NCBI RefSeq assembly: GCF_900177805.1 | Contig: NZ_FXAX01000001.1 | Location: 682,001-746,000 of the forward strand | DNA: 64,000 nt | Reading direction: 5' to 3' | From: Fibrobacter sp. UWB13 | GTDB lineage: Bacteria > Fibrobacterota > Fibrobacteria > Fibrobacterales > Fibrobacteraceae | Shown here: positions 9,110 through 42,812 of the stretch, in pieces | How positions within the stretch are numbered: position 1 is the first letter of the stretch | Layout of the letters: each line of letters begins with the position of its first letter | Notes under the pieces: generated by a model | What the model was told of the DNA's origin: nothing | Database searches by the model: none | Seen by the model: only the letters and a program-made list of their open reading frames with translations | Position numbers and translations under genes: made by a program

Positions 9110-9982
9110 ATGCAAAAGATGTTTTCGACAATCATCACCGAAAATGGCGGCTATGCAGACTTGCACATGCATACCAAGCTCTCTGACGGTACACTTTCCG
9201 TTGATGAATTGCTCATGCTCTGCAAGCGCAAAGGTCTTCGTTGCATTTCCATCACGGATCACGACAATCTCGACAGCTACAAGCTCGCCGAAGAACCCGC
9301 CAAGGAAATCGGTCTCGAAATCATCCCTGGAATTGAAATTTCTGCCGTGTGGCAGGGCAAGGACATCCACATTCTGGGTTACTTCTGCGACCCGACGAAC
9401 CTCGCCTTGAACATGGAACTCGAAGATTTTGCCAAGCAGCGCATCGCCCGCGTGAAAGCGATTATCAAGAAGTTGAATGCGCTCGGCATAGGCATCACAT
9501 TCGAAAAAGTGCATTCGTACTGCAAGGGGAAAATCATCGGACGCCCACACATCGCGATGTCGCTCGTCGATGAAGAATACATTTCGAACTTCTCCGAAGC
9601 GTTCACGAAATACCTCGGTGACGGTTGTATCGCTTTCGTCGAAAAGAAAGGTCTCAACCCACAAGAAACAATTCGACTGATTGAAAACGCTGGTGGCATT
9701 GCCGTACTTGCCCACCCATACAAATCCGGGCTCAGCGACAAGTTCATCGAGAACATGGTGGAATGGGGTATCCAGGGCATGGAAGTCTACAGCCCTGCGC
9801 AAAAAGGTGCTGTTGGACGCAAGTACAAGGAAATGGCTCAACGGTTTGGTCTTGTGGGCACAGGCGGTTCCGACTTCCACACCGAAAACGGGACTTACCC
9901 CCCAGGTTGCATGAAAATGCCCTACACAGTTGTCCAGGCACTTCGAGAAAGACGCGAAAAGTCTCGTGCAGAATGGTTCTAA
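9110..9982 (+). CDS. PHP-domain phosphoesterase (3',5'-nucleoside bisphosphate phosphatase / RNase AM-like)
   Basis: 290 residues of the polymerase-and-histidinol-phosphatase (PHP) fold. The metal-binding residues are in place: DLHMHTKLSDGT (about 18-29), ITDHDNLDSY (about 48-57), PGIEIS (about 69-74), GRPHIA (about 144-149), AHPY (about 203-206) and GGSDFH (about 255-260). By similarity to the YciV/RNase AM group it would remove phosphate from 3',5'-bisphosphate nucleotides or trim short 5' RNA ends; the exact substrate cannot be read from the sequence. It starts two bases after the previous stop, and its TAA overlaps the ATG of the next gene (TAATG). Confidence 0.85.
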   Translation: MQKMFSTIITENGGYADLHMHTKLSDGTLSVDELLMLCKRKGLRCISITDHDNLDSYKLAEEPAKEIGLEIIPGIEISAVWQGKDIHILGYFCDPTNLALNMELEDFAKQRIARVKAIIKKLNALGIGITFEKVHSYCKGKIIGRPHIAMSLVDEEYISNFSEAFTKYLGDGCIAFVEKKGLNPQETIRLIENAGGIAVLAHPYKSGLSDKFIENMVEWGIQGMEVYSPAQKGAVGRKYKEMAQRFGLVGTGGSDFHTENGTYPPGCMKMPYTVVQALRERREKSRAEWF

Positions 9983-12039
9983 TGAATCGTGGAATTCTTC
10001 TAATTGCTGTATTGTCGACGCTTGTATCAAGCGTTTTTGCTGATGTCATCCACGCCAAGCAGAGCAAGCGCCCCGCTCCGCAGGACTCTGTTTTTGAAAC
10101 GCCGAACTCCCCCGACCCAGCACCTCGAGAAACAGATGCTGGTCGTTGGGTCATTCCGCTGCGCGAAGTCATGCAGCGCACGTACGACCTTTCTGGGCAA
10201 AAATCAGAATGGGTGCTCGGCACGTCCATCCTCGGTAGTCCGGAACTCCCTGCCAAAGCTCTTGGCATTGGTAGCTTAAGCAAACGCTACCCGAGCAAGC
10301 TTGCGGGCATTTACACGACTCGTTTAAGCTATGACGGTTCGACGCTCGCCCTCAATGGCGAAAACGGCATTCTCTTTGAAGAGCGTCATGGAATCCCGGT
10401 CGATACGCCGATTACAGATGTGAACTGGGAACGCGGTGCATTTGAAGGCAACGCTTTGCGACTGGAATTTCGCCGCCTCATTACAGACTCGGTGACGCTC
10501 GATCTCGGTGTGGCAAGCCATTCCGACATGCTCTCAAAGCCGTATGAATACCAGCCTGTGACGCATTCGCCGTATTTTGCATTGGGTCGTGACTCTACGC
10601 AAATTCCGTTTGGCGGCCGTAACATCGCCATGAACAGCATGCACCTCCAGCCCATTGTCACTTGGCGATTTGGCTACGGCAAGGCTTTTGTGAAGATAAA
10701 CTATTTAAGTCTCGACAATGCCGACAATACAACGCACGAAGTTTTGCTCGATACACTTGACCCGACAGCTCGCAATTTTCAGACAGACCCGTACAGGATT
10801 ATCATCGAATCTCGCACGTATGGCGGAGGCGTTGAATTCTACCCCATCAAGGATTTGACGCTTGGCACAGAAATCCATTACGGCAATCACGAAATAGAAT
10901 TGCGTAAGCTCTCCAGGATTATCAAAAGTTCGGACACGACTTACAATGAAAACGGGCTACGCAGCATCAACATCAGTTATTACGACACGAGCAAAGTCCG
11001 CAATTACGAAACGATTCTCGGAAACTTCGATGTTCGCTACAACGCCTTCCTGAACCCGAAGCTCCATTTTGAATATGAATTTTTAAACACCGAAGAATCG
11101 GGCAGCGACACGAAAAAGAAAACGCATTACCAAGACCGCGAAATTGGTTATGCCGAAGTTTCCGATACGCTTTTCGGGAAGGCTCTTTTCCGTGTGCAAG
11201 CAGGCATGCAGCGCAACAGTTCGCTCCTTAACGAGGTCAAATTTGCACCCGCGTTTTCAATTGATGGAACGTACTTGCTTCCATATCATTTGATGGCAAG
11301 CGCCTCGTACCGCCACGACAACAAGTTCCCGGACGTGAATCAAATCAAGCTAATCGAAACAGGACGAATTGCATTCCCGAACGAAGACCTCAAGCACGAA
11401 GTGCGCGACCGTACGACCGCCAATCTCGTGTGGCAAAAACGCGATGTCTTTTACGGTCTTGGTCTGCGCTATGAACATGCCAACAACTTGATTAAGCCCC
11501 ACTGGGCTATTGCAGGGCGAATCGATTCAACGAGTTCATACGACGATATTAACGATGTGACGATTACCGAAGTTACCGATTCTCTGGAAAACGCCTTCCG
11601 CTACGAAAATCTCGATCATGCCCATACGCTCGACTGGTTGATGCAAATCGGCTTCCGTCTTGGAAACTGGAAATTCTACTTCGAACGTGGCGAAAAAATC
11701 ACTCGCACAAAGCTTATCGATACACCTTCGCTTTACTACAAAGGCAGTATCCATTGGCAAAATCGATTTGTGAAAGATAGACTCGGCGTGAGTGTTCGCG
11801 TGGACTTCCAGTGGTTCAACAACCGCTATGACTGCACCATTGATGAGAATGGCAAGCCCAAGCTAGTACAGCTCAACAAGTACTTAGCGATGGATTTCGA
11901 AGCGCGTATGCAGATTCTCACGTTTGAACTTTACAACCGCATCGAGAATTTCAATCACAGCATTTACGCCCCGGAATCCGGCTATACGCCTGAAGGACTC
12001 CGTTTCGCTTACGGCATCGTCTGGACCTTTGGGAATTAA
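9982..12039 (+). CDS. Putative outer-membrane beta-barrel (porin/TonB-receptor-like) protein
   Basis: 685 residues beginning with a clear signal peptide (MNRGILLIAVLSTLVSSVFA). The ATG overlaps the stop of the PHP gene (TAATG), so translation is probably coupled; an upstream in-frame extension through the PHP gene is not credible. After a short Pro/Ser-rich segment the sequence is dominated by alternating amphipathic strands rich in Tyr, Phe, Asn and Asp (for example YGKAFVKINYLSLDNADN, LHFEYEFLNTEESG, YGLGLRYEHANN) and ends in a barrel-type terminal strand, RFAYGIVWTFGN. No TonB box or clear plug domain is recognised. It most resembles a large outer-membrane barrel; the cargo is unknown. Confidence 0.75.
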   Translation: MNRGILLIAVLSTLVSSVFADVIHAKQSKRPAPQDSVFETPNSPDPAPRETDAGRWVIPLREVMQRTYDLSGQKSEWVLGTSILGSPELPAKALGIGSLSKRYPSKLAGIYTTRLSYDGSTLALNGENGILFEERHGIPVDTPITDVNWERGAFEGNALRLEFRRLITDSVTLDLGVASHSDMLSKPYEYQPVTHSPYFALGRDSTQIPFGGRNIAMNSMHLQPIVTWRFGYGKAFVKINYLSLDNADNTTHEVLLDTLDPTARNFQTDPYRIIIESRTYGGGVEFYPIKDLTLGTEIHYGNHEIELRKLSRIIKSSDTTYNENGLRSINISYYDTSKVRNYETILGNFDVRYNAFLNPKLHFEYEFLNTEESGSDTKKKTHYQDREIGYAEVSDTLFGKALFRVQAGMQRNSSLLNEVKFAPAFSIDGTYLLPYHLMASASYRHDNKFPDVNQIKLIETGRIAFPNEDLKHEVRDRTTANLVWQKRDVFYGLGLRYEHANNLIKPHWAIAGRIDSTSSYDDINDVTITEVTDSLENAFRYENLDHAHTLDWLMQIGFRLGNWKFYFERGEKITRTKLIDTPSLYYKGSIHWQNRFVKDRLGVSVRVDFQWFNNRYDCTIDENGKPKLVQLNKYLAMDFEARMQILTFELYNRIENFNHSIYAPESGYTPEGLRFAYGIVWTFGN

Positions 12040-37837: not shown

Positions 37838-38704
37838 ATGGAATTATCTTGGTGGAACTTAATACCGACTTATTTTGATGGAACGGCATTCCAACTCGGA
37901 AGTTTTCCGGTGCGCTGGTATGGCATCATGTACATTTTTGCATTCGTGACCGCCTATATCACCATGTGGAAAATCAGCCAGAAAGAAAAACTCGGCTACA
38001 CCAAAGATCAGCTCGACAACTTCTTCACATGGATTATCGCAGGCATTCTGCTCGGCGCCCGCCTTGGTTACGTTTTCTTCTACAAGGCAAGCTATTACCT
38101 TTCCAATCCGTCCGAAATTTTATTCCCGATGGTTCACGATGACCTCGGTTACCACTTTGTCGGAATTTCTGGAATGTCATACCATGGCGGTCTCGTGGTT
38201 GGTCTTCTGTTCATGTATATCGGTGCAAAGCGCAACAAGCTCGACATTTGGAAGACTTTCAACCTAGCCTTCTTGGTAACGCCTCTTGCCTATACTTGGG
38301 GACGTTGGGGCAACTTCATCAACGGTGAACTTTTTGGAGAAGCTACTACAAGCGCCATCGGCATGTGGTTCCCGCTTGCCCATGACAGCACGCTTGCAAA
38401 CCCGATTCTCCACCACCCGAGCCAGCTTTATGAAATGGTCTTCGAAGGCATCGTGCTCTTTATCGTCTTGTACAACCTGCGCAAGATTCCAAAGCTCCAC
38501 GACAAGGTTCCTTGCCTCTATTTGATGGGTTACGGTCTGTTCCGCTTCTTCATTGAATTTTTCCGCAAACCGGATGCACACCTTGGACGCGTGGACCTCT
38601 TTGGCATGAGCCGAGGTCAGACGCTCTGCTCGGCAATGATTATTGCCGGTCTCGTGTGGATGATTTACCTCTTCTACAAAGAGAAGAAAGCTAATAACCC
38701 TTAA
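37838..38704 (+). CDS. lgt: Prolipoprotein diacylglyceryl transferase
   Basis: First enzyme of lipoprotein maturation: attaches diacylglycerol from phosphatidylglycerol to the lipobox cysteine. The 288-residue inner-membrane protein has the Lgt hallmarks VRWYGIMYI (about 24-32), GARLGYVFFY, MSYHGGLVVGLL, and the signature RWGNFINGELFGE (about 151-163), then HPSQLYE and GLFRFFIEFFRKPD. GAAGAAGG precedes ATG. It serves the many lipoproteins seen in this window. Its last 14 bases overlap the 3' end of the convergent DAC-like gene. Confidence 0.96.
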   Translation: MELSWWNLIPTYFDGTAFQLGSFPVRWYGIMYIFAFVTAYITMWKISQKEKLGYTKDQLDNFFTWIIAGILLGARLGYVFFYKASYYLSNPSEILFPMVHDDLGYHFVGISGMSYHGGLVVGLLFMYIGAKRNKLDIWKTFNLAFLVTPLAYTWGRWGNFINGELFGEATTSAIGMWFPLAHDSTLANPILHHPSQLYEMVFEGIVLFIVLYNLRKIPKLHDKVPCLYLMGYGLFRFFIEFFRKPDAHLGRVDLFGMSRGQTLCSAMIIAGLVWMIYLFYKEKKANNP

Positions 38705-40385
38705 ACAAGTTTTCCCAAAGGTTACGTTCTTCTTCGAACTTTTGAGCAAAAAGTTTGCTCACTTGTTTGTAGACAGCCTTGATATGTACCGCCAATTCAT
38801 CGGTAACATATTTCTCTGCCTTACCATCATCAGCACCAGCTTCATTCATAAGCTTCATCCACTGGCTTTCCTGATTTTTGCTACCAAGCGTCGAAGATAG
38901 CGACGTATCTTCGTAGCACTTGTTTTTCATATATTTTTCCCAAACGGACTGAGGAATCTTCTCCAGGAAATTCTTGAGGAACGGTTCTGCATTTGTAGAA
39001 TAACCGTAAGAGTTACCAATCAGGCATATAAGAGGCACATTGATCACACGTTCCTCGTTCACACCACTCCAGGATTCTTCCGTCAGTTCAAAAGCGGCAT
39101 TGCTTAAATCTTCGGCAGGCTTCGGTTCGTTGTAGAAGTTGTCAATTCCCAAATGGGCGTCGCGCAAGCGGTTCAAGAAATCAGACAACGGAGAATTGCT
39201 ATCGGCAATCGAGTTTTCAACCATTCCCGCATTGACTGCAGAAGCAAGAGAGGCAGCCTTGCCATCAACATGTTCTGCATTCTTGGCCTTTGTATTTTCG
39301 ACTTCAGCAGAACCATCACAACGATCCATGACTGTAGAATCGAACGATGAAGATACGCGGAACTTATGGTAAAACCTGATGTTTCCTTCTTGCGATTGGA
39401 AGTAAAGCGCCTTGTACTTTTCGTTATCTTTAAACAAATTCGCAAGAGCTCTATAGGCGCGGTGTCTTGCACCGCCAGACGTAAACTTACCACGGTGGAT
39501 GGACACAAAGCAATGGAATGCACGCACGCAACCGTTCGTATCGATAACCGTAATGCCGTCGTAGTTCAACATCGAGATGAACATCTTACGAATAAAATTC
39601 TGCTCGTACAAATCGCGGTACGACTGCGAGTCCAGCATGGAGTCCGGCTTGATCTGCATTTCCTTGTAGTCGTCAAAGACAATCTTGCCGCTATCGAAAT
39701 TGTCATCCGCATTGCCATTCCAGGACGGATCGACAAACAGACAGATGGTGCCATGAACTTCCCTTTTGATTTGCGAGAAAAGCCCAGCCCAGAAGCCCTT
39801 CGGGTATGACTCCAGATTATTGTCTTCCAGATTATCAGAGAATTCATTTTCATCCAAATCAAAGCGGATGAGCAAGTGGTCACTGACACCAGAAGAGGTA
39901 TGAGAATTTATGCAAATTTTAGAACGGTTCACGCATTCAATCAGCAAAAATCCCTTTTCGAGAAGCGCACGTTCCGTCTCGCCCGCATTCCCGATATCCG
40001 ACTGGAACACCCCCACCTGGATAGAGGGTTCGGTCTTTTCTCGTGCCGGCATCTGCAGAATAATCAAATCGCATCCGCTTTTGCAGAAGTGGATGACATC
40101 CTTCAAACAAGCTTTTACACGTTCCTTGAACAGGTTCTCGAGTGCATCTCCCGCAAACTCATAGATACGACGGTTCCAGCCCATCGGCGGGTTCCCGTTT
40201 CCCATGATGATTCGGAACGTAAAGTGGTCGTTTTCTTCTTGATAGTGCGGAACACTCGGCAAAATTTCGATAATAGCATCAATAACCGCTTCCTTCATCT
40301 CAGGAAGCTTGCGCAGAAAGAAATCCTTGATCTTCTTCCGGTCGAGCCCAATGACGCTCGAAGAATTGTCAGTTTCAGCACTCAT
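38691..40385 (-). CDS. Uncharacterised protein with divergent diadenylate-cyclase (DisA_N/DAC-like) core
   Basis: 564 residues with no signal peptide. Residues about 276-340 match the DAC fold's signature order: DGITVIDTNGCVRAFHCF (DAC: DGA..I....), GGARHRAYRAL at 304-314 (DAC: GTRHRAA), and LYFQSQEGNIRFY at 327-339 (DAC: VSEETG.I). A preceding HGTICLFVD (211-219) recalls the strand before the DAC core in 'DACN' sensor-type proteins. The usual Thr of GTRHR is Ala and DGA is DGI, so it may sense rather than make cyclic di-AMP. The N-terminal 200 residues and the helical C-terminal 200 residues match nothing I know. Start from ATG 40385; no good Shine-Dalgarno. The family assignment is inference from motifs. 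Confidence 0.6.
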   Translation of the reverse strand: MSAETDNSSSVIGLDRKKIKDFFLRKLPEMKEAVIDAIIEILPSVPHYQEENDHFTFRIIMGNGNPPMGWNRRIYEFAGDALENLFKERVKACLKDVIHFCKSGCDLIILQMPAREKTEPSIQVGVFQSDIGNAGETERALLEKGFLLIECVNRSKICINSHTSSGVSDHLLIRFDLDENEFSDNLEDNNLESYPKGFWAGLFSQIKREVHGTICLFVDPSWNGNADDNFDSGKIVFDDYKEMQIKPDSMLDSQSYRDLYEQNFIRKMFISMLNYDGITVIDTNGCVRAFHCFVSIHRGKFTSGGARHRAYRALANLFKDNEKYKALYFQSQEGNIRFYHKFRVSSSFDSTVMDRCDGSAEVENTKAKNAEHVDGKAASLASAVNAGMVENSIADSNSPLSDFLNRLRDAHLGIDNFYNEPKPAEDLSNAAFELTEESWSGVNEERVINVPLICLIGNSYGYSTNAEPFLKNFLEKIPQSVWEKYMKNKCYEDTSLSSTLGSKNQESQWMKLMNEAGADDGKAEKYVTDELAVHIKAVYKQVSKLFAQKFEEERNLWENLFKGY

Positions 40386-41134: not shown

Positions 41135-41166
41135 CACTTTCCTGTTGCTTTTTCATTTTATTTTCT

Positions 41167-41174
41167 TACATTTA
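41167..41174 (+). promoter_or_regulatory. TAnnTTTA box of the solute-binding lipoprotein gene
   Basis: TACATTTA, six bases before ATG 41181; same position as the TAnnTTTG boxes elsewhere, with one base changed. Confidence 0.35.
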
Positions 41175-41180
41175 GCATAT

Positions 41181-42812
41181 ATGAGAAAACGAGTTGCTTT
41201 ACTTTTCGTTGTTTTCGGTGTATTTTTCGCTATTAGCACCGGTTGTAATGGATTTTCCGAAGAGCCTCCCTCCAAAGTCTCCAATGCTAATTCGTCCAAG
41301 TATAAAATCGGTGTCGAAGAAAAATCAAGCATATCCGAAGGGGTTGCCGGTCAGCTTCCTAAAACACAAATCAAGCAATACCCCGACTTAATAACGGCTT
41401 ATTTTGCGCTCCAGGTTGGCGATATCGACATATTGGCTTATGACGAGAACGTCCTTACGCACACATTCAACGATAGCATGAGCGGCATTACGTTCATCGA
41501 AAACGATGTTGGCGTTCCGAACGAATTCGTCATCGCCATGAACAAGCACAGTTCCATTCCTGACTTAAAAGGAATCATCAACCGCCTTATCGACAGCTTA
41601 AACGCGGCTGGCACGCTCACCGAGCTCAACGAGCACTGGAACAAGAACTCAAAAACAAATCCGCTAATCAGCACCAAGGAAAGCGAATCCGAGCAAGTCC
41701 TGAGAATCGCCACATCAGCCGACGTTCCCCCGTTTTCATTTACCAGCGGGAACCAGATTGTCGGGTTTGATATCGATTTAGCGAAGCTCCTCGAAGAAAA
41801 ACTGAACGTCAAGACCAAGATTATCAAGACGGACCGCAACAAGCTCGTCTCTGCACTCAAGAATCACGAAGCTGACCTCGTCATTTCGGCATTCACCGTC
41901 TGCGAATGCTTACAGCACGAAATTGACAATTCAAAGCCCTACTACATCGGGAAAACCGCTTTCGCCATTCGCAATGACTTTGGCAAAGAAGCGACACTCA
42001 GCAAAGTTCCCAAGATGACTTACCTCGAACCCAAGAAGCCCGACGAGATTTACAAGCTCGCCGACTTGTCCGGGAAATTCGTCGGAGTCCAGACAGGAAC
42101 AACGCTCGATGAACAAGTACAGCAGCTAATCAAGCTCCCCCGTATCCAGTACTTTGCAAACATTCCCGAAATGACCAAGGCTTTGGAAGAGAGGAGCCTG
42201 GACGGAATTGCAGTAGATTATTCTGTTGCAGAATCCATTCTCAAGCATCATTCTGAATTTTCCATTTTAAAGGATAGGCTGAACAAGGACGAATTTGGCA
42301 TTGCCATGAGCAAAAATAGTCCTCTGAAAGCTAGCATCGATTCGTGCATCAGCGTGCTCCAGAAAAAAGGCGAAATCCAGAAAATCAAGGACAAATGGTC
42401 TAGGAACAAGTCCGCAGTCAGATCCATCAAGCAAGACTGGATTGGTAGCGATACGCTTATCGTTGGCACCGAAGCTCTTTACGCTCCTTACGAATTCTAC
42501 CAGTGGGGCGAAATCTCCGGCATAGATATCGATATCATGTACACCATCGGCAAAATGCTGAACAAGAACATCAAGTTTGCGGACATGAACTTCGATGTGC
42601 TGATTCCATCCCTAGTAAACGAAAAAACGGACCTCTGCATCGCCGCCATGAGCATTACCGAAGAACGCAGCAGTCTAATCGACTTTTCGATTCCTTACGA
42701 CAAGAACGAATCTGTTATTGTGGTACACACTCCTAAACACTCTCTCGAAGTTGTCGGAGACTCTACCGGCGTTTTAAGCCACATATTCCAGAAGATACAG
42801 GAATGGTTTTAA
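41181..42812 (+). CDS. Lipoprotein with one complete and one split (circularly permuted) solute-binding domain
   Basis: 543 residues with a lipobox (FAISTGC, Cys22). Residues 173-407 are a full extracellular solute-binding domain of the amino-acid type (LRIATSADVPPFSF...GFDIDLAKLLEE...DLSGKFVGVQTGTT...LDGIAVDYSVAE...). Residues 40-155 look like only the second part of such a domain (YKIGVEEKSS...GDIDILAYDENV...NEFVIAMNKHSS...LTELNEHWNK), and 424-520 only the first part (LIVGTEALYAPYEFYQWG...GIDIDIMYTIGKML...SITEERSSLIDFSIPY). The two pieces together make one domain. The outer domain keeps the substrate carboxylate-binding Arg (EERSS); the inner has CECLQHE there. No transporter genes are adjacent, so it may sense ligands. 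Confidence 0.8.
   Translation: MRKRVALLFVVFGVFFAISTGCNGFSEEPPSKVSNANSSKYKIGVEEKSSISEGVAGQLPKTQIKQYPDLITAYFALQVGDIDILAYDENVLTHTFNDSMSGITFIENDVGVPNEFVIAMNKHSSIPDLKGIINRLIDSLNAAGTLTELNEHWNKNSKTNPLISTKESESEQVLRIATSADVPPFSFTSGNQIVGFDIDLAKLLEEKLNVKTKIIKTDRNKLVSALKNHEADLVISAFTVCECLQHEIDNSKPYYIGKTAFAIRNDFGKEATLSKVPKMTYLEPKKPDEIYKLADLSGKFVGVQTGTTLDEQVQQLIKLPRIQYFANIPEMTKALEERSLDGIAVDYSVAESILKHHSEFSILKDRLNKDEFGIAMSKNSPLKASIDSCISVLQKKGEIQKIKDKWSRNKSAVRSIKQDWIGSDTLIVGTEALYAPYEFYQWGEISGIDIDIMYTIGKMLNKNIKFADMNFDVLIPSLVNEKTDLCIAAMSITEERSSLIDFSIPYDKNESVIVVHTPKHSLEVVGDSTGVLSHIFQKIQEWF

Follow-up and report, generated by a model that had tools for sequence, protein, structure and literature searches.

A protein of 564 residues (P0001), encoded in a window of 64,000 nucleotides of contiguous DNA from Fibrobacter sp. 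UWB13, is read here as a nucleotide-responsive switch in which a tandem of domains with the diadenylate cyclase (DAC) fold is joined to a helical domain serving for output or as a scaffold. We assign to this reading, which builds on sequence comparisons and structural models, a probability of about one half. The family to which P0001 belongs is real and uncatalogued, and for P0001 binding or sensing is narrowly favoured over cyclisation. The features discussed below are as follows, with positions counted along the window.

38691..40385, minus strand: P0001 gene, 564 aa, one open frame with an ATG start
39852..40358, minus strand: N-terminal domain (domain 1), residues 10-178, probably a degenerate domain of the DAC type with the order b-b-a-b-b-a-b-b-b (AF2 and VIA-align)
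40233..40244, minus strand: YxEE motif, residues 48-51, conserved in 34/34 members having the N-domain
39345..39818, minus strand: DAC-like domain (domain 2), residues 190-347 (Foldseek, VIA-align, hhalign)
39729..39755, minus strand: HGTICLFVD, residues 211-219, equivalent to the GALI strand of DACs (alignment; motif roles from PMC7288161)
39549..39560, minus strand: DGIT, residues 276-279, DGA counterpart with the ribose Asp kept and the Ala replaced (alignment)
39456..39476, minus strand: GGARHRA, residues 304-310, counterpart of GxRHRxA, the phosphate-binding loop (alignment)
39384..39395, minus strand: SQEG, residues 331-334, equivalent to (V/I)SEE with its ligands of phosphate and metal (alignment)
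39192..39338, minus strand: variable linker, residues 350-398, pLDDT 28-56 over most of its length and the highest dN of the protein
38703..39191, minus strand: C-terminal helical domain (domain 3), residues 399-561, homologue of the second half of protein B (hhalign, hmmsearch)

The DAC-like domain and its pocket

DAC domains are known mainly as makers of c-di-AMP in homodimers, and the canonical dimer is face to face. The initial annotation had recognised in this 564-residue open reading frame the order and spacing of the DAC motifs, and both are confirmed: HGTICLFVD (211-219), DGITVID (276-282), GGARHRA (304-310), and SQEG (331-334) follow each other as in DACs. PF02457 (DAC) is the sole Pfam match of P0001 at E<=10 (E 0.0052, residues 235-314); its 16.8 bits lie below the gathering score of 27. 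The same model is matched at E<=0.1 by 16 of 35 homologues, the best reaching 4.6e-4. The profile of the domain, compared by hhalign with ten canonical DACs from the same genome set, gives an E of 1.9e-4 in the register proposed by the initial annotation. NCBIfam, PADLOC, and PDB sequence searches with P0001 or its profiles returned no useful match.

The AlphaFold2 model of P0001 has a mean pLDDT of 74.5; at a pTM of 0.41, it does not predict how the domains are placed relative to one another. The best 50 PDB rows listed by Foldseek for this model are all DACs, with CdaA at the top (E 3.8e-5). VIA-align gives a Z of 11.4 to M. tuberculosis DisA, with 120 residues aligned at an rmsd of 2.9 A, and the best non-DAC row (7.8) lies on the C-domain. 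Judged from the profiles and the model, residues about 190-347 have the DAC fold, as the initial annotation had supposed. Neither of the outcomes that it had named as refuting, a model of this region devoid of the fold or the lack of a significant profile match, has come about. The two options that it had offered, divergent cyclase or nucleotide sensor, remain the right ones.

The residues of the putative pocket are highly conserved. D276, G277, T279, G304, G305, R307, A310, and G334 are identical in 35/35 sequences of an alignment that spans 18-91% overall identity to P0001, S331 is kept in 34/35, and position 333 is acidic throughout (E in 19, D in 16). In CdaA, the ligands are an Asp for the ribose, an Arg, a Ser, and the His position for the phosphates, and a Glu for the metal (PMC7288161). 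According to our own mapping through alignments and the model, D276 would be equivalent to the ribose ligand, R307 and S331 to phosphate ligands, and E333 to the metal ligand. Such a pocket could belong to an active, divergent cyclase: two molecules would associate through their C-terminal DAC-like domains, face to face, and produce c-di-AMP or another dinucleotide, to be read or relayed by the partner domain. The essentially invariant D276, R307, S331, E/D333, and glycines argue for this possibility, the metal ligand in particular being one that a pure sensor might lose.

Other positions of the pocket point away from a cyclase. The published DAC motif is GxRHRxA (PMC7288161). P0001 retains GARHRAY, i.e. 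GxRHR, and this full RHR again fits an active enzyme, but across the family the H and the second R vary: the position of H308 is H or K in 32/35 sequences, and that of R309 is R, K, or I. At the third position of DGA, the family exhibits I in 28, M in 4, and V in 3 of 35 sequences and Ala in none, whereas all ten canonical DACs compared have the Ala; in an active cyclase, this bulky replacement would alter the choice of base. SEE is replaced, always or nearly so, by S[QH][ED], with the Ser and the acidic metal ligand retained. At the level of sequence, DGA to DG[IVM] and SEE to S[QH][ED] are the consistent departures of the family from DACs. The initial annotation had singled out DGI for DGA, which extends to all 35 sequences, and also the Ala in place of the Thr of GTRHR, which carries less meaning: the CdaA of the window genome itself reads GMRHRA, and as the Thr position varies in real DACs and is dispensable there, its absence in P0001 says little. 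Taking also into account the evidence on c-di-AMP described below, we regard an active cyclase as somewhat unlikely.

Flanking domains and partner B

The regions on both sides of the DAC-like domain, which had initially been described as matching nothing known, have recognisable relatives. From their secondary structure, residues 32-178 were noted, before testing, as a possible second DAC-like domain. The AF2 model of residues 1-186 alone reaches a pLDDT of 81 and a pTM of 0.78. When the N-domain was compared by VIA-align with 997 chains, the listed rows at Z>=5 were all DACs, namely 7dfx (DacM) with 6.5 and DisA 9y4s and 9y9y with 5.8 and 5.7, the next row being at 2.4; 111-120 residues were aligned to DAC structures at 3.4-3.6 A. 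Foldseek with the N-domain folded alone gave no significant match, and the sequence profiles of the N-domain and of domain 2 do not support a duplication (E 0.43). As the Z values are modest (about 6), we call the N-domain only probably DAC-like. P0001 would then exhibit a tandem, in which the modelled N-domain is probably a second, degenerate DAC-like domain.

The C-domain up to residue 517 matches, in hhalign, the C-terminal half of protein B, the partner of the family members outside Fibrobacter (98.4%, E 7.3e-15), and hmmsearch with the profile of B gives E values of 1e-16 to 1e-21 in close homologues of P0001. By these profile comparisons, domain 3 corresponds to the C-terminal half of this HEPN-motif-derived partner. 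The structural matches of the C-domain, CNOT9 and CLASP2, were set aside, their Z of <8 being in the range expected of helical proteins.

The motif of HEPN RNases is Rx4-6H (PMC3710099). Solo relatives of B on plasmids and L021, a B-like gene of Fibrobacter, bear RN..SAAH, which is consistent with this motif. The motif is intact in L021 and in four solo plasmid B proteins and lost in every A-linked B protein (A being the free form of domains 1 and 2), and the HEPN-like half of B is missing from the P0001 fusion. Partner B thus appears, from the motif in its solo relatives, to be derived from a HEPN-motif protein.

The solo B-like genes (L133-L137) are located on plasmids of Acinetobacter, Rhodococcus, Streptomyces, Bacillus, and Embleya, and the four aligned proteins, L133-L136, are those with the intact HEPN-type motif; these genes are candidate single-gene RNase effectors. 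The B-like gene L021:1345-2688, from Fibrobacter genome G031, exhibits an intact RNNFSAAH, is devoid of a DAC-like partner, and adjoins a P-loop ATPase-like gene, with which it may form a separate HEPN plus ATPase pair.

Distribution and genomic context

The neighbours of the P0001 gene are lgt and a UPF0340 gene, as initially annotated. As the gene is convergent with lgt, with an overlap of 14 bp at the P0001 stop, and divergent from the UPF0340 gene, located 149 bp upstream, it forms a single-gene unit. The neighbourhoods listed for the Fibrobacter succinogenes group (L024-L034) likewise have the gene between lgt and the UPF0340 gene, and the Fibrobacter copy occupies a fixed housekeeping site. 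A second Fibrobacter subgroup, 30% identical, occupies another chromosomal site, and UPF0340 has different neighbours in members of the genus without a P0001 homologue. The gene, or part of it, is present in 27 of the 168 genomes of the phylum, all of one genus. An oligoribonuclease gene close by had been mentioned as a possible, weak link to P0001. It was rejected as a functional partner: its proximity is clade synteny alone within the Fibrobacter neighbourhoods listed and is not seen in the other lineages whose neighbourhoods were listed.

Two further observations concern Fibrobacter loci. Genome G011 (L020/L023) carries a disrupted copy, in which unrelated sequence separates the N-terminal part of the fusion from the C-terminal one, so a P0001-type gene can be lost. 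Adjoining the P0001 region, window positions 41145-42812 (plus strand) encode a 555-aa lipoprotein-like protein with apparently repeated periplasmic solute-binding domains, which seems to evolve faster than its neighbours (60-89% identity among the relatives listed).

Outside Fibrobacter, domains 1 and 2 constitute a free protein A of about 345 aa. Unfused A was found in Clostridia, Geobacter, Desulfosporosinus, Pontibacter, a phage-like contig, and plasmids of Vibrio and Agrobacterium. Gene B (408-443 aa) directly follows unfused A in 18/23 loci, usually with an overlap of a few bases, and 18 loci carry a fusion of A with the C-terminal part of B; this order and this fusion indicate that the two parts probably work together. 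No relatives were found in phage records or, by a DNA-level search, in E. coli genomes, and a wide search of the phylum of Desulfosporosinus returned solely the query genome (1/398).

Some of these loci exhibit peculiarities. In Prevotellaceae L060, the readable A frame covers the DAC-like part alone and is probably truncated, and a transposase-like gene directly precedes this reduced A gene (L060:8925-9719 and 9761-10264). The Vibrio plasmid carries an HTH regulator upstream of A and, directly downstream of A/B, a third gene of 204 aa (L112:3225-3839) without a Pfam or PADLOC match.

The initial annotation had remarked that no defence gene is adjacent, which is correct for the window gene but does not extend to its mobile relatives, which are located in defence islands. 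Mobile copies of A or A/B adjoin a pair of CBASS cyclase and patatin genes on the Agrobacterium plasmid, a BsuBI/PstI restriction system on the Vibrio plasmid, PARIS AriA/AriB in Butyrivibrio, and PD-Lambda-5 in Geobacter; on the phage-like contig, the neighbours are a TdeIII restriction system and, not far off, a caspase-like gene. A HEC-06/GmrSD gene and Druantia/DISARM-like genes are also among the neighbours of mobile copies. Among proteins within 6 kb of a locus, PADLOC families matched at E<=1e-15 number 163 near 11 mobile loci versus 3 near nine core loci; as the loci were divided into mobile and core by hand and several families per protein are possible, this is a contrast and not a calibrated test. 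Proteins A and B themselves have no match among the PADLOC 2.0.0 models, and A/B pairs are uncatalogued in PADLOC. For the mobile copies the defence context is an association, and the window gene, which lacks this context, evolves slowly, unlike typical defence genes.

Nucleotide signalling is common in defence islands, which is a further argument for an active cyclase. A bolder reading, with the odds somewhat against it, is that A and B are an anti-phage system not yet catalogued: the tandem DAC-fold protein would make or read a nucleotide signal upon infection and control the HEPN-derived partner, and the Fibrobacter copy would be a fused version, domesticated as a core regulator.

Possible role and relation to known systems

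In the nucleotide-responsive switch proposed here, domain 2 would bind ATP or another phosphorylated nucleotide, and domain 1 would provide a sensing or capping half-site, in the place taken by the second active DAC in the canonical dimer. The ligand state would then be passed on to the helical, B-derived partner domain. Mobile A/B may serve in anti-phage defence or stress surveillance, whereas the protein may be a fixed chromosomal regulator, with a housekeeping or stress role, in the clade of Fibrobacter and in some Clostridia.

The window genome holds a canonical CdaA besides P0001, which argues against P0001 being a cyclase as well. Among 15 genomes searched, seven that bear the gene lack a DAC over the Pfam cut-off, some assemblies being possibly incomplete. 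Six of the seven are small, Clostridia-type genomes of 0.9-1.3 Mb, in which neither CdAMP_rec nor 7TMR-HDED was found over the cut-off, nor a c-di-AMP riboswitch. The presence of A/B in these reduced Clostridia, without PF02457 and the markers, suggests that the A/B unit can exist apart from the canonical c-di-AMP system, and the score of 0/3 markers also counts against an active cyclase. However, the same three markers are mostly absent from the comparison genomes having DACs, which makes them a weak argument against a role in c-di-AMP signalling.

P0001 might instead be a receptor or modulator of the c-di-AMP system of the cell, which would bind c-di-AMP or pair with CdaA and tune it, with the partner domain as output. 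The DAC fold, the intact appearance of the pocket, and the canonical CdaA in the same genome are compatible with this, but the seven gene-bearing genomes without a DAC and the restriction of the gene or its parts to just 27/168 genomes of the phylum make it improbable.

Selection acts strongly on the gene. Nucleotide comparisons indicate purifying selection (omega about 0.04-0.08, dS being saturated), and among relatives dN is lowest in the N and DAC-like domains and highest in the linker. The low dN of the DAC-like domain (0.01-0.07, at saturated synonymous sites), together with a pocket that is among the most conserved parts of P0001, points to a function under strong selection. This leaves very little room for a vestigial protein, i.e. 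a one-time defence module that was domesticated in Fibrobacter and whose nucleotide pocket is purely structural, even though the HEPN-like half of B is missing, Rx4-6H was already lost in A-linked B, and the synteny is fixed in Fibrobacter.

A conserved family that combines a DAC-like tandem in a single chain, a systematic change of DGA, and a HEPN-derived partner, fused or adjacent, would represent a route from the DAC fold to a sensor or to a different cyclase. If the anti-phage reading of A/B is true, the DAC fold would join the known nucleotide-signalling chemistries of defence. With its sparse mobile copies beside CBASS, PARIS, and restriction genes, the A/B pair is a two-gene candidate for phage defence that can be tested directly; the fusion in Fibrobacter, which degrades fibre in the rumen, would offer a domesticated counterpart for comparison.

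With regard to known systems, P0001 shares with CdaA/DacA and DisA (PF02457) the fold (Z 9-11), the order and spacing of the motifs, and most residues of the ATP pocket. It differs from them by its sub-threshold Pfam score, the altered DGA and SEE, the His of RHR, kept in P0001 but not across the family, the tandem N-domain, and the fused partner domain. The relation to the HEPN superfamily is through the solo plasmid relatives of B, which exhibit Rx4-6H; A-linked B is without the motif, and P0001 carries the C-terminal half of B alone. CBASS, PARIS, PD-Lambda-5, and type II restriction-modification systems are found within a few kb of mobile A/B, but as separate genes.

The DACNV-DAC proteins were compared through the sequences of ten Bacteroidota proteins (L123-L132). 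The PF21751 (DACNV) model covers their N-terminal part (e.g. residues 70-158 of 415 in L123) and is followed by a DAC-like domain with mostly DGA, GG[TS]RH, and SQDG. Both groups exhibit an N-domain with an EEG-type motif and then a DAC-like domain with a GG[TSA]R loop, which ends in SQDG (SQEG in P0001). The N-domains of the two groups align at the EEG motif with an E of 0.11-0.35, which is not significant. In terms of profile E values, domain 2 resembles the DAC-like domain of the DACNV proteins (hhalign 95.5%, E 1.4e-8) more than it does canonical DACs. In a tree of domain 2, the family stands apart from both DACNV and canonical DACs (bootstrap 99), the order of the groups not being resolved. 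Most of the sampled DACNV proteins keep DGA, whereas the P0001 family has DG[IVM], and a B-like domain, fused in P0001, is present in none of the ten proteins read. As regards the DACN proteins mentioned in the initial annotation, the DACNV model describes a domain N-terminal to a DAC-like domain, and P0001 does not match it at E<=10. Based on the match of domain 2 and the lack of one to PF21751, the family is best described as an uncatalogued relative of the DACNV-DAC proteins and not as a member of PF21751.
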